Positions 35,531 through 40,694 of a stretch of 41,653 bases of DNA are shown here, in pieces. The notes beneath the pieces are model-generated. The model ran no database searches, was not told the origin of the DNA, and saw only the letters and a list, made by a program, of their open reading frames with translations. The first letter of the stretch is position 1. Each line of letters opens with the position of its first letter. This stretch comes from Campylobacteraceae bacterium (GTDB lineage Bacteria > Campylobacterota > Campylobacteria > Campylobacterales > Campylobacteraceae), in the NCBI GenBank assembly GCA_031255525.1, contig JAIRSJ010000001.1, positions 1 through 41,653 on the forward strand, in the 5' to 3' direction. Both the position numbers and the translations under genes were made by a program.

Positions 35531-36297
35531 CGTATAATCCTTTTGGAGATAAGTCGTAAAATATCATCCATAAGTTTACCTGTAATACCTATTATTATCA
35601 TTCCCAAGATAACTATATCAGGACGGGACAAGCTGCGTCCATCCATCAGCATGTAACCTATTCCGCTATTAGCTGCTATAAGTTCCGCAGCTACCACACA
35701 TATCCATCCCATCCCAAGCCCTATACGAATACCTACCATGATAAACGGAATAGCACCCGGTAATATTACATGCCAGATTGCGCGTATTCTTTGCACCTCA
35801 TAAACACGTGCCAGCTCCAAATAACGCGAATCTATATTTTTAATACCCTCTACAGTATTGATTAAAATAGGGAAGAATGCGCCTATGGCAATGATATAAA
35901 TTTTTGACGCTTCGCCAATGCCAAACCATAATATTGCCAACGGTATCCACGCAATCGGCGGAATAGGTTTAATAATCTGCAACGTAAAATCCATAAATTT
36001 CTCAAAACGAGTGCTTAATCCGATGGCTACTCCCAACAACAGAGCTAAAACTAGTGCTATACCAAACCCCTCCATCACACGCGTAAAGCTGTCTTTGATA
36101 TGTTGCAAAAGTGTCCCGTCATTATAAAACTCAAACGCCGTGATAATAATGTCTTCAGGCGGCGGCATAGTATAAGATACGATATATCCCGCCATATCTG
36201 CTGCTTTCCAAATAACTATAATTAATATTGGTAAAGTAAAATACCAAACAAACCCTGCAAATTGCCTAACCATAAAATCAGATTCCTGCCTGATCAA
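35521..36297 (-). CDS. ssuC: Sulfonate-type ABC transporter permease
   Basis: Inner-membrane permease with six or so helices; up to 258 residues. The EAA-like loop is visible in [20 protein letters not shown] followed by [18 protein letters not shown], typical of the SsuC/TauC group. The first ATG (36297) lies inside ssuA; the internal ATG at 36273 (MVRQFAGF) lies 4 nt after the ssuA stop with an AGGAA upstream and may be the true start, giving 250 residues. Confidence 0.88.
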
Positions 36298-37213
36298 GAT
36301 ATTCGGTCGTAATAAAATCCTTGATATCTACGTCTTTACGGATAATCTTCTCTTTTAAAACGTAGTTTTTAACTTTTTCTATTTCGGCAATATCGCGCGG
36401 TTCAAATTTCGTGTAATACTCAACATGTGAAAAAACCGATTTGAGGATTTCGGGCGAAACCTTAAAAATCGGCGATAAAAGTTTGGAAGCTTCTTCGACA
36501 CAGTTATTGATATAATCCGCGCCGCGCTGCACAGCTTTTATATATGCTTTTAGCGCTTCGGGATGCGTTTTGGCAAAATCTCGTTTAATGTATGAAATGT
36601 TATTGCCGAGCTTAATGCCCGTACCGTCTGCTACTACTCGCGCTTTGTTTGGAACTGTCAGCTGAGAGATATATTGTTCCCACACAACAGCACCGTCAAT
36701 ATCTCCTCTCTCAAGCGCTGCAGGAATATCGCCTGCGGCAAGATTTATCTCTGTGATATCGCTAAACTTCAATCCGCTGTTGTTTAGCAAAAGCGCTAAA
36801 AGATGTTGCGCATAAGTACCCTTGCCGTAAGCTATCTTTTTACCCTTAATATCTTTAACCTCTTTTATGGGAGAATTTGCAGGCACGATGAGTGCAAGCG
36901 CTTTTTCACCTATGCCGAAATTTGCAAATAAAACGATATCTAATCCGACCGATTTGGCTATGATAGCAGGTAGATCCGCCATAATTCCCAAATCTATACT
37001 GCCGCCTCGAACCCCCTCGTTTACAAGAGGTCCGTTGGCAAAAACATTCCATGTATATTGTACGCCTACCTTTTCGAACTCTTCGTCAAGATAACCTAAC
37101 TCTTTTGCAGCCCAGAGCGGCGCGTAAAGCGGATAGGCTTGCACGCCTATTCTAAGCTCCGCACCAAATGCAAATGAGATAAGCGTCAAAAACGCTAAAA
37201 TTATTTTATTCAT
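36278..37213 (-). CDS. ssuA: Sulfonate-type substrate-binding protein, exported
   Basis: Periplasmic binding protein for the ABC importer. The track start at 37258 is upstream; the ATG at 37213 is right, with ACGGAGGAATTGAT before it, giving 311 residues. A signal peptide (MNKIILAFLTLISFAFG) precedes AELRIGVQAYPLYAPLWAAK, a start typical of SsuA/TauA/NMT1-like proteins. GGSIDLGIMADLPAIIAKS and GKKIAYGKGTYAQHLL line the ligand cleft in this family. No lipobox Cys, so a soluble protein. Ligand inferred from the linked ssuD. Confidence 0.88.
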   Translation of the reverse strand: MNKIILAFLTLISFAFGAELRIGVQAYPLYAPLWAAKELGYLDEEFEKVGVQYTWNVFANGPLVNEGVRGGSIDLGIMADLPAIIAKSVGLDIVLFANFGIGEKALALIVPANSPIKEVKDIKGKKIAYGKGTYAQHLLALLLNNSGLKFSDITEINLAAGDIPAALERGDIDGAVVWEQYISQLTVPNKARVVADGTGIKLGNNISYIKRDFAKTHPEALKAYIKAVQRGADYINNCVEEASKLLSPIFKVSPEILKSVFSHVEYYTKFEPRDIAEIEKVKNYVLKEKIIRKDVDIKDFITTEYLDQAGI

Positions 37214-37313
37214 ATCAATTCCTCCGTTTTTTGTAAAAAAATTATTCAATAAATGCACCTTTTAAAAGACTTATCTATTGCAACAAACAAGTGTATCGCT
37301 CAAACCGCGATTA
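37214..37313 (-). promoter_or_regulatory. Leader region between the mini-ORF and ssuA
   Basis: About 100 nt with the ssuA Shine-Dalgarno at its 3' end. On the minus strand, ATCGC...GCGAT (37295-37311) makes a 5-bp hairpin 2 nt after the mini-ORF stop codon. Such a layout could let ribosome position on the mini-ORF affect downstream expression, but no clear terminator/antiterminator pair was seen. Confidence 0.3.
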
Positions 37314-37343
37314 TTATGCGGCAACTAAATCTATCCGTTTCAT
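37314..37343 (-). CDS. Nine-codon leader peptide candidate
   Basis: Far below the ORF-track cutoff. On the minus strand the sequence AAGGAGGTGCGCTATG gives the best Shine-Dalgarno in this operon, directly before MKRIDLVAA, which ends in a double stop TAATAA. It lies between ssuD and ssuA. A small hairpin follows the stop. A nine-residue peptide with such a strong ribosome site is unlikely to be an enzyme and more likely regulates ssuA-C-B translation or transcription. No run of Cys or Met codons is present, so classical sulfur-amino-acid attenuation is not supported. Confidence 0.5.
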   Translation of the reverse strand: MKRIDLVAA

Positions 37344-37425
37344 AGCGCACCTCCTTAACTTGTTAAAATATATGCATTAAATCCCCTCAATACTTATAAA
37401 AGCCTTCTCATTCTTTTATCATCCT

Positions 37426-38574
37426 TCAGGAAGCTTTAACTTGCTTGTTTTTTAAGATCAGTCTTGTATCAAATGCGCCGCCTGTTACTATGTTGTCTTC
37501 AATGGTAAATGGTTTTTTATCAGGCAATAATGGGAACACAAGCTCTGCAAAACGCACAGCCTCCTCCAGATGCGGATAGCCTGAAAGTACGAATGTATCG
37601 ACTCCAAGATCTATATATTCTTGAAGTCTTTTGACTATCGTTTGCGGATCTCCTACAAGAGCAGTGCCGGCTCCTCCTCTTATCAAACCTATGCCGGCCC
37701 AAAGATTCGGACTTATCTCGAGTTTATTTTTATCGCCTTTGTGCAAAGATGTTATGCGGTGCTGTCCTACGGAATCCGAACTGTTTTGACTGGTTTGTGC
37801 AGCGGCTATCAAATCATCATCCAAATGACTTATAAGTCTGCTTGCCGCATCCCATGCCTCTTCTTCGCTCTCTCGTACAATAATCTGAAGTCTTATGCCA
37901 AACTTCACCGTTCGTCCGAGCGCAGCAGCTCTTTTTTTTACATCGGCTATCTTTTCCGCTACCAAATGAGGTGGTTCTCCCCAACTGAGATATGCGTCTA
38001 TATGCTTTGCCGTCAAATCATGAGCAGCATCAGACGAGCCTCCGAAATACAAGGGTGGATGTGGTCTTTGAACAGACGGAAATAGATTTTGAGCATTTTC
38101 CACATGGTAATATTTGCCTTTAAACGTGACTTTCTCGCCACTCAAAAGTTTTCGCCAAATAGTTAAAAACTCATCCGCTGCTTCGTATCTTTCATCATGG
38201 TTTAAAAATACTCCATCAGCCGCAAGCTCCTCAGGCCAAGCTCCTGGAACCACATTTAGTATAAGCCTGCCGTTTAATGCTTCATCTAAAGTAGAGGCTT
38301 GTCTTGCAAAGACCGTAGGTCCGCCCGTAGCTGAAGTTCTCAAGGCTACCAAAAGTTTAATTTTACTTGTTACGTTTGCTAATGTTGCCGCAGTAATAAA
38401 TGGGTCGAGATTGCCGCTCCCGGTAGGTATCAGAAGCCCATCGTATCCAAGTTGTTCGGCCGTAGTGGCAATTTGTTTCAAATAAGCATTGCTCACAGGT
38501 CTTGCCGAAGATGATCTGCCCAAATATCTGCCGTCTCCGCCGGTAGGTAAAAACCAAAAAATTCCTAAACTCAT
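37426..38574 (-). CDS. ssuD: SsuD-like FMNH2-dependent alkanesulfonate monooxygenase
   Basis: Flavin-dependent luciferase-family enzyme that would release sulfite from alkanesulfonates using FMNH2 and O2. 382 residues. Closely resembles E. coli SsuD by eye: [63 protein letters not shown] and [11 protein letters not shown] are all aligned. Three active-site positions differ: His11 is Gly, Cys54 is Asn and His228 is Gln (E. coli numbering), while Arg226, Arg297, Tyr331 and His333 are kept. No ssuE reductase gene is adjacent. Shine-Dalgarno AAGGAG lies 7 nt upstream. First gene of the operon. Confidence 0.88.
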
Positions 38575-38861: not shown

Positions 38862-40694
38862 ATGCACAATGGTGGCGAACAAGTAAGCGTATTTACCGAA
38901 GCTTACGTATCGGGTGACATAAACATAGCAAAAGACTACTACAACCAAAAAATAAAAACTGGCGGCATACAGTTTGCGGCAGAGAAATCCGGAGTGAACA
39001 AATGGCTGCAAACACCTCTCGAGCAAAAAGTCATTCAAAAAGAAAAACGTGGCATTTGGAATGTAACATTTAATGGCAAGAACTCATATAAAATAAGAAA
39101 GCTTGATGAAGATGCTGTAGTAAATTACGATCATGGTAACAATAAATACGGAGCTATTCACATACAAAAACATCTTAAAGAGGGTGCATTAGGAGAAATA
39201 ACCAAAATTGATTTGGTGAATATGGGTGAAGTTATAAGAAATGGCGAATTTGATATAAATAATGGGCGAAATGTATACACATTAAATAAAAATGGTGCAG
39301 AATATAAAGTTATTACTTGGAGTGATGAAAGCGGCAATGAAAGATTCTTGACTTTTTATAGTGATAAAGGAGTCGGGGATGAGATTTCCTCAATTATCAA
39401 TAACCCGACTCAGAAAAGCATTATACCACAACCCAAAGGAAAAAACAATGAAAACAGTGCAAGAGATGGAGACATTCTTACAGCAGAACATGACACCGCA
39501 GGAACGCCAAGAGTTGACACAGACGGTATTGGAAGGGGAGAAAGCCCTCAAGTCCTCGATTATGCAAATCTCGGCGGGAGCAAAGCAGATGATGCAGGAG
39601 CCATACCAAGACTTGGATCGGATACTATCCCTGATCGCGAGATTCGGGGAGTACCCAAGATCGATGAAAACTTGGACAGACTCGAACCCTCTAACGGCAA
39701 TGAGCCAAGCATTTCAGGGGATAAGTCAAACGATGTGGTACGCACAGAAAATGCGGACGATATCGCTTCAGCTAAGAACACAAACTCAAACAGAGTAGTC
39801 TTTTACAAAAAAGGTACAGACCGCAATGATAAAACACATCTTCAAGAGACGCTGGGAGAGAGGGTAAAGTCCAACGCGAAAGGGTTTGAAGACGTTCCGT
39901 TTGCTATAGCGAAAGATGGCAAATACTATACGATAACCGATATGCAAACAGGAATGGCAGTTTTACCATACGGCGAACATATTAAAACGAAAAAAGAGGC
40001 TTTAGCGATGCTTGATGACAGACTTGAAAAGTTCGGCAGAGCCAAATTTGACGATGTTGTAAACAAAGATAGAATTGAAAATATAGACGAACTGTTAAAA
40101 ACAGCCAATGAACCAAGAGGGACTATTGAAGCCAAAATAGCAATATTAAAAAGAAAAATAGAAGAAGAAGATAATTTTTTTGTAAAAAGAGACAGAGAGG
40201 AGATGAATTATTTTAATGAAAAGTACAAGGATATAGTAGCGCAAACGGGCGAGCCATATACAAGAGATAGTATTATAGACGCAGATAAAAAGATAGCCGA
40301 ATATACTGCGCAGATCCAAAAGCTTGAAAATGATTTAAAGGTTCTTGACGAAACCAAGCCCATAGAGCAGGAGACAAAAGAGGTATTTACCCAAGTGAAA
40401 GAGACAGTAAAAAAGACACGACAAAGACTCTCGGAGGTAAAAAACACAAAAGCAGAGTCAAGCTGGCACGATGAACTCTACGGCATAGAGAAAAAAGCGG
40501 ACGACATAAATCCCGAAGCTATTGCAGAGCCTGATATAGTAAAGCAAAGAGATATAGAACTTCAAACAAAATATGACGAGCTGAAAAGTAAAGCCAACAA
40601 TCCCGAAACAAAACAGGAGTTAAAGACGTTTGAAGATAAATATGTAAAAGAGGGAAGGGTAGTAAACGAGATAGAACAGGCGAAAGGTTGTTAA
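38862..40694 (+). CDS. PBECR-type nuclease domain with coiled-coil tail (polyvalent-protein fragment)
   Basis: 610-residue ORF. Residues about 95-170 (YGAIHIQKHLKEG, MGEVIRNGEF, GRNVYTLNKNGAEYKV, ERFLTFYSDKG) match the barnase/colicin E5-like PBECR nuclease pattern found in phage and conjugative-element 'polyvalent' proteins (DUF3519-like in Campylobacter and Helicobacter). Then come IIPQPKGK and a disordered, Gly/Asp-rich linker (about 196-312), a domain with AIAKDGKYYTITDMQTGMAV (315-405), and a Lys/Glu-rich coiled coil ending EIEQAKGC. The ATG at 38862 has no Shine-Dalgarno, so the N-terminus may have been lost at the element edge. Probably a toxin delivered to or acting in a target cell; the target RNA is unknown. 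Confidence 0.7.
   Translation: MHNGGEQVSVFTEAYVSGDINIAKDYYNQKIKTGGIQFAAEKSGVNKWLQTPLEQKVIQKEKRGIWNVTFNGKNSYKIRKLDEDAVVNYDHGNNKYGAIHIQKHLKEGALGEITKIDLVNMGEVIRNGEFDINNGRNVYTLNKNGAEYKVITWSDESGNERFLTFYSDKGVGDEISSIINNPTQKSIIPQPKGKNNENSARDGDILTAEHDTAGTPRVDTDGIGRGESPQVLDYANLGGSKADDAGAIPRLGSDTIPDREIRGVPKIDENLDRLEPSNGNEPSISGDKSNDVVRTENADDIASAKNTNSNRVVFYKKGTDRNDKTHLQETLGERVKSNAKGFEDVPFAIAKDGKYYTITDMQTGMAVLPYGEHIKTKKEALAMLDDRLEKFGRAKFDDVVNKDRIENIDELLKTANEPRGTIEAKIAILKRKIEEEDNFFVKRDREEMNYFNEKYKDIVAQTGEPYTRDSIIDADKKIAEYTAQIQKLENDLKVLDETKPIEQETKEVFTQVKETVKKTRQRLSEVKNTKAESSWHDELYGIEKKADDINPEAIAEPDIVKQRDIELQTKYDELKSKANNPETKQELKTFEDKYVKEGRVVNEIEQAKGC
39448..39798 (+). CDS. Second open frame nested in the PBECR gene
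   Basis: 116 residues in the +1 frame relative to the PBECR gene. It has its own AAAGGA Shine-Dalgarno 7 nt before the ATG, and the product (MKTVQEMETFLQQNMTPQER..., IARFGEYPRSMKTWTDSNPL) looks helical. The track's version begins further upstream at 39361. Against it: bases at the first position of the main frame are mostly purine and rarely T, as expected if the main frame is the constrained one. T is only about 8 of 117 third positions of the nested frame, unlike this genome's genes. Either a true overprinted gene, or a shadow. No family recognised. Confidence 0.35.
   Translation: MKTVQEMETFLQQNMTPQERQELTQTVLEGEKALKSSIMQISAGAKQMMQEPYQDLDRILSLIARFGEYPRSMKTWTDSNPLTAMSQAFQGISQTMWYAQKMRTISLQLRTQTQTE

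Follow-up and report, generated by a model that had tools for sequence, protein, structure and literature searches.

To our knowledge, short open reading frames (ORFs) inside operons, unlike those in 5' leaders, have rarely been described as regulators. The mgtQ ORF of Salmonella consists of eight codons led by AGGAGG, lies in the 219-nt gap between mgtC and mgtB, and controls the translation of the transporter gene mgtB; it frees a ribosome-binding site (RBS) held in a stem-loop, and Asp/Glu codons are needed for this effect (PMC8092293). In Campylobacter jejuni the leaders LeuL, TrpL and MetL are translated, the candidate MMYQMR precedes a methionine-transport gene, and CJsORF19, which contains many codons for the amino acid concerned, precedes a substrate-binding-protein gene (PMC11955535). 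The upstream ORFs of 5' untranslated regions, among them mgtM and mgtP, regulate through the translation of a short ORF as such, and mgtM and mgtP sit in the 5' leaders of their operons.

The DNA analysed here (the window) is a stretch of 41,653 nucleotides from a Campylobacteraceae bacterium. The initial annotation had reported a nine-codon ORF with a near-consensus Shine-Dalgarno (SD) sequence between ssuD and ssuA, and we found it on the minus strand with the same coordinates and peptide. Read along that strand, the order between the two genes is AAGGAGGTGCGCT, the ATG at 37343-37341, nine codons encoding MKRIDLVAA, a TAA at 37316-37314 and another TAA at 37313-37311, the second TAA being the stop position that aligns with those of the relatives described below. 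The features of the region, all on the minus strand, are as follows.

37426..38574, minus strand: ssuD, FMNH2-dependent alkanesulfonate monooxygenase (TIGR03565 above cut-off)
37350..37356, minus strand: SD sequence AAGGAGG of the mini-ORF (from the sequence; predicted anti-SD duplex -13.4 kcal/mol; GGAGG in 9/9 genomes)
37311..37343, minus strand: mini-ORF, ATG AAA CGG ATA GAT TTA GTT GCC GCA TAA TAA (from the sequence and the relatives)
37304..37322, minus strand: putative hairpin P2, GCCGC (37322-37318) with GCGGT (37308-37304), stop codon in the loop (pairing and double changes)
37288..37298, minus strand: putative 5' arm of stem P1, CGATACACTTG, 12 nt past the second stop codon (covariation and spacing)
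37251..37261, minus strand: putative 3' arm of stem P1, AAGGTGCATTT, ending 37 nt before the ssuA ATG (covariation and spacing)
37221..37225, minus strand: SD sequence GGAGG of ssuA, kept in all nine leaders
36278..37213, minus strand: ssuA, aliphatic-sulfonate substrate-binding protein (TIGR01728 above cut-off)

The ATG of the mini-ORF lies 130 nt from that of ssuA. The duplex energy of its SD sequence, -13.4 kcal/mol, compares with a best value of -9.5 among the 23 window ORFs that have an ATG start and at least 200 codons. Fourteen AAGGAGG...ATG sites are present in the whole genome, and the mini-ORF is the only one of them with an ORF of fewer than 20 codons outside another long open frame. 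Like mgtQ, it is a very short, SD-led ORF that is placed in an unusually long operon gap ahead of a transporter gene, overlaps with stem-loops and is conserved in relatives; unlike mgtM and mgtP, it is internal to its operon. It also resembles LeuL, TrpL, MetL and CJsORF19, short ORFs of the same phylum that stand before genes for metabolism or transport, and it shares with CJsORF19 a position ahead of a substrate-binding-protein gene (PMC11955535), but, unlike CJsORF19, it has no codon run and lies between operon genes.

An ORF of this size would by itself prove little, and the case for it is based on its conservation in relatives. The comparison set was composed of nine genomes of the same genus, the window's own and eight others, with an ssuA ortholog of at least 84% identity; these are related lineages of one genus, represented by draft genomes and MAG contigs. 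Campylobacterota are mentioned among the MAGs obtained from termite guts (PMC9137090), and partly on this ground we take the same-genus MAGs to be of termite-gut origin, the record titles themselves being silent on habitat. A mini-ORF with a strong SD sequence was found ahead of ssuA in 9/9 genomes, at 130-268 nt from the ssuA start. The encoded peptides, of 9-11 residues, are MKRIDLVAA, MKRVILTAVY, MKQINLIIAY, MKQTDLISAY, MKRLILDAAK, MKRLILVTAK, MKRLILVAAK, MKRLDLTAAY and, as the single case of 11 codons, MKSESNCCLRF. The last of these is read in a shifted frame in genome G001 (leader L008) and is unrelated to the others, yet the SD sequence, the ATG, P2 and P1 are all retained there. GGAGG and ATGAAA are unchanged in 9/9 genomes, compared with 7/90 (7.8%) invariant columns among the four-fold-degenerate sites of ssuA; these sites have diverged to 54% identity while the SD sequence and ATG of the mini-ORF have remained invariant. 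The aligned stop is kept in 8/8 in-frame copies, as TAA in five and TAG in three. The initial annotation had raised the possibility that the ORF or its SD sequence would be missing from close relatives; this is not the case, as both are present in all eight, one of them frame-shifted. On this comparison we conclude that the mini-ORF is conserved and is not a chance occurrence. Further away, G010, whose ssuA is 63% identical, encodes MKSRSFNL behind an AGGAGG in the same position, and G013 (ssuA 53% identical) has no mini-ORF before ssuA.

R1, a covariance model of the leader core, was used to examine the distribution of the element. It scored 73-83 bits at the ssuA leaders of eight genomes, once per genome, and at most 26 bits elsewhere in the genus; nine of the weak genus matches were opened and proved to be mostly ordinary gene starts, many of them of signal-peptide proteins. 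Outside the genus, a sample of 397 genomes of the phylum gave only low scores, from 25 to about 30 bits, and MAGs labelled Helicobacteraceae that have a close ssuA show a short gap between ssuD and ssuA, from which the element is absent. The search for the mini-ORF in other Campylobacterota ssu or tau operons, proposed in the initial annotation, was thus negative outside the genus in this phylum sample, and the element is not a general leader of such operons in the phylum. These comparisons indicate that the leader is real, intercistronic and restricted to the genus. Our literature search found no paper describing it, and nothing published on sulfonate-gene control in uncultured gut Campylobacteraceae.

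RNA structure prediction had also been suggested for this leader, and comparison of the nine sequences uncovered two putative stems; the RNA structure, and above all the long-range stem P1, had gone unseen in the initial annotation. In P2 (GCCGC/GCGGY), 94% of the cells are paired and three of the five pairs show a double change, a level of pairing reached by 8/500 shuffles. P1, which in G002 reads AGAUAC-GCUUU / AAAGC-GUAUCU, shows compensatory double changes at 7/11 pairs, a result obtained with 0/500 shuffles, and slid registers were clearly worse; the arms were registered by hand with one bulge base omitted, which favours pairing somewhat. The mini-ORF stop is 8-12 nt from the beginning of P1, and the end of P1 is 37-45 nt from the ssuA ATG, whereas the span between the two arms varies from 46 to 182 nt. 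The leading edge of a ribosome terminating at the mini-ORF stop would presumably lie roughly at the foot of P1. The window copy of P1 contains mismatches, is among the weakest of the set and is absent from the minimum-energy fold; the window leader is no more stable than its shuffles (z -0.89), while that of G007 is more stable (z -2.57). The covariation count was used for P1 because p-values were mixed when the RNA duplex was tested in single sequences, and because the arms overlap in short leaders. We also asked whether the region of the P1 3' arm pairs with the ssuA start region: the pairing was better than that of shuffles at p<0.05 in 0/9 genomes, so that we identified no switch in which the ssuA RBS is hidden. 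An mgtQ-like sequestration of this site is therefore not supported for its obvious partner, the P1 3' arm, and the locus differs from mgtQ in this respect, as it does in having a conserved stem, P1, that closes a variable insert.

Several other sequence elements were observed in the leaders. Immediately beyond the P1 3' arm, on its 3' side, most of them retain YATTGG (TTATTG in the window, 37243-37250, minus strand), a motif that P1 does not explain; a TTG start within it was rejected, as the reading frame is not conserved and there is no SD sequence. Five long leaders (L003, L006, L007, L009 and L010) have in common a hairpin inside the P1 insert whose loop contains an SD-like GAGGAG or AAGGAG; TTTTCGCATAAGAGGAGTGCGAAAA is one example. 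A small hairpin is found in the early ssuA codons (window 37182-37196, minus strand: AGCGTTTTTGACGCT); its counterpart in G007, AGTG...CACT, is a possible covarying pair, but G005 and G008 lack the hairpin. In the minimum-energy fold of G007, codons 2-4 of the mini-ORF pair with the P1 3' arm; this interaction was dropped because by eye it was present only in G002, G006 and G007.

The gene directly before the mini-ORF differs in at least six relatives, and the element therefore belongs to ssuA rather than to ssuD. It is ssuD in G000, G001 and G010, a radical-SAM gene (NF045502) in G002, G005, G007, G008 and G009, remnants of the radical-SAM gene in G006, and an ssuA paralog in G012. That the leader follows ssuA while the upstream gene changes fits the earlier suggestion that it sets the output of the transporter separately from that of SsuD. 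Often no more than about 18-60 nt separate the stop of the upstream gene from the mini-ORF SD sequence, which leaves little room for a promoter, so the element is probably internal to the transcript in several genomes.

The neighbourhood itself is variable. In most relatives the radical-SAM gene (NF045502) lies between ssuD and ssuA together with a gene of 151 codons that has no confident family assignment (L034 4142-5380 and 5381-5836; also L032, L033, L035 and L036); in the window both are missing at that place and ssuD is directly upstream. In L033 and L042 several ssuD and ssuA-like paralogs follow one another, and for genomes of 1.5-1.7 Mb this sulfonate-type gene set is unusually rich. 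Tandem ssuA copies are present in G008, G012 and G049. Beside the ssu operon of the window is a 610-codon open frame (38862-40694, plus strand), with further open sequence on the same strand from about 40934 (plus strand).

The substitution pattern bears on whether the peptide matters. For the eight in-frame copies, codons 2-10 gave a pN of 0.30, a pS of 0.29 and a pN/pS of 1.03, a ratio that comes from few codons and in which pS is lowered by the overlap of P2 with codons 8-9; the corresponding values for ssuA were 0.069, 0.59 and 0.12. By this measure the mini-ORF is conserved above the neutral level at all of its sites and not specifically at the amino-acid-changing ones. A ratio near 1, together with the frame-shifted copy of G001, speaks against a peptide sensor and in favour of either translation as such or the RNA. 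The eight in-frame peptides contain no amino-acid run, which bears out the initial statement that a Cys or Met run is lacking. Asp occupies codon 5 in 3/8 copies, Ile or Asn being found in the others, and one further copy has Asp at codon 7, so that, unlike the situation in mgtQ, acidic residues are not conserved. Leu6 is encoded by TTA in 8/8 in-frame copies and a second TTA is present at codon 4 in four of them; TTA accounts for 22% of Leu codons in the long window ORFs and for 15% (38/249) in the ssuA set. In the window, the only terminator candidate after the mini-ORF was a weak hairpin of 5 bp with ACACTTGTTT behind it; in the relatives, inspected by eye, nothing convincing was seen, and no antiterminator pairing was found. 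The idea that the peptide senses something, put forward in the initial annotation, is thus not supported. The arrangement of a leader ORF followed by RNA stems is that of the trpL-type ribosome-mediated transcription attenuators, but the present leader lacks a run of codons for any pathway product, a conserved peptide and a convincing terminator/antiterminator pair, and the amino-acid selection expected of a TnaC-type arrest leader is likewise missing, with the limits on pN/pS given above. The leader had no Rfam match up to E 5. A CsrA gene was found in 0/14 genus genomes by a search that detects CsrA in control genomes, and CsrA binding at GGA loops was excluded on this ground.

We consider it very likely, judging from these patterns, that the mini-ORF is translated. 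The reading that we favour, to which we give an even chance, is that the element is a cis-acting intercistronic leader of ssuABC in which translation of the mini-ORF, and not its peptide, would set ssuABC translation through P2 and P1. The invariant SD sequence and ATG, the strength of the SD sequence, the stop with its TAA/TAG interchange, the covariation of P1 and P2 and the constrained outer spacing are consistent with it, as are the tie to ssuA under a changing upstream gene, the little room for a promoter, the pN/pS of about 1, the structurally intact copy of G001 and the precedent of mgtQ. Against it count the mismatches of P1 and the unremarkable stability of the leader in the window, the pairing of the P1 3' arm with the ssuA start region at the level of shuffles, the relatedness of the nine genomes and the manual registration of P1. 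Ribosomes would load heavily on the mini-ORF, terminate within P2, melt that hairpin and stop at the foot of P1, and the frequency of termination would decide the leader fold and the number of ribosomes reaching ssuA. This could occur through altered access to the ssuA start region; alternatively, terminating ribosomes may be handed over across P1, a distance of about 49-56 nt when measured through the fold. The signal would be the act of translation, as for mgtM, mgtP and the other upstream ORFs of 5' untranslated regions, and SsuABC output would be set independently of whichever gene precedes the leader. By analogy, the leader would work like mgtQ but is unrelated to it, the two sharing no sequence relation. 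One form of hand-over, which we regard as fairly improbable, would have P1 act as a bridge that keeps the folded stop-to-start distance nearly constant (49-56 nt) despite an insert of 46-182 nt, with ribosomes that end the mini-ORF passing the structured insert and re-initiating at ssuA, a hand-over device between operon genes.

The retention of P1 and P2 in G001, where the peptide has been lost to a frame shift, would also be expected if translation were irrelevant and the stems and insert formed a module for mRNA processing, stability or regulator binding, with the SD sequence and ATG serving as a standby or 30S-binding site. The further hairpins within the inserts of long leaders and the lack of amino-acid-level constraint also agree with this possibility. 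We judge it unlikely, although it deserves real weight: a 30S-binding site alone needs neither the ATG, nor the SD spacing, nor the aligned stop with its TAA/TAG interchange, all conserved in eight genomes, and two obvious versions of such a module fail, given the Rfam and CsrA results. The same lack of constraint on the peptide, with pN/pS of about 1 and replacement of the peptide in G001, makes it improbable that the leader is a classical leader-peptide attenuator in which ribosomes stall on the mini-ORF in response to the level of a charged tRNA or to a small molecule and thereby alter folding or termination downstream. Its size is typical and its SD sequence strong, TTA is used at Leu6 and codon 4 as described above, and translated leaders and a further candidate are known from C. 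jejuni (PMC11955535); however, there is no Cys, Met or other amino-acid run in the conserved peptides, and the weak window hairpin followed by ACACTTGTTT is not a convincing terminator.

The remaining explanations deny the mini-ORF a function. Codons 1-6 resemble the start of ssuA in the same genomes (MKRLIL compared with MKKLVL of SsuA), ssuA occurs in tandem copies in three genomes, and the weak model matches outside the locus are mostly starts of genes for signal-peptide proteins, all of which would agree with a relic, namely what remains of the start of a duplicated gene for a substrate-binding protein, kept only by recent common descent. Four-fold sites have fallen to 54% identity with the SD sequence and ATG invariant, however, and neither the covariation of P1 nor the constrained spacing is expected of a relic, which renders this account very improbable; an origin from a duplicated gene start is possible, but pure decay is not. 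Ten-codon ORFs are common in any DNA, and one without a role could have arisen by chance. This is scarcely credible here, since the SD sequence and ATG are invariant in 9/9 genomes at a neutral-saturated distance and the mini-ORF is the sole intergenic ORF of fewer than 20 codons among the AAGGAGG-led starts of the genome; as far as sequence comparison can refute chance, it does so.

If confirmed, control of ssuABC by translation of the mini-ORF would provide, in uncultured gut Campylobacteraceae, a compact natural case of a transporter gene controlled by the translation of a short ORF and not by its peptide; here the peptide drifts, whereas the mini-ORF is conserved along with a covarying stem whose geometry is fixed.
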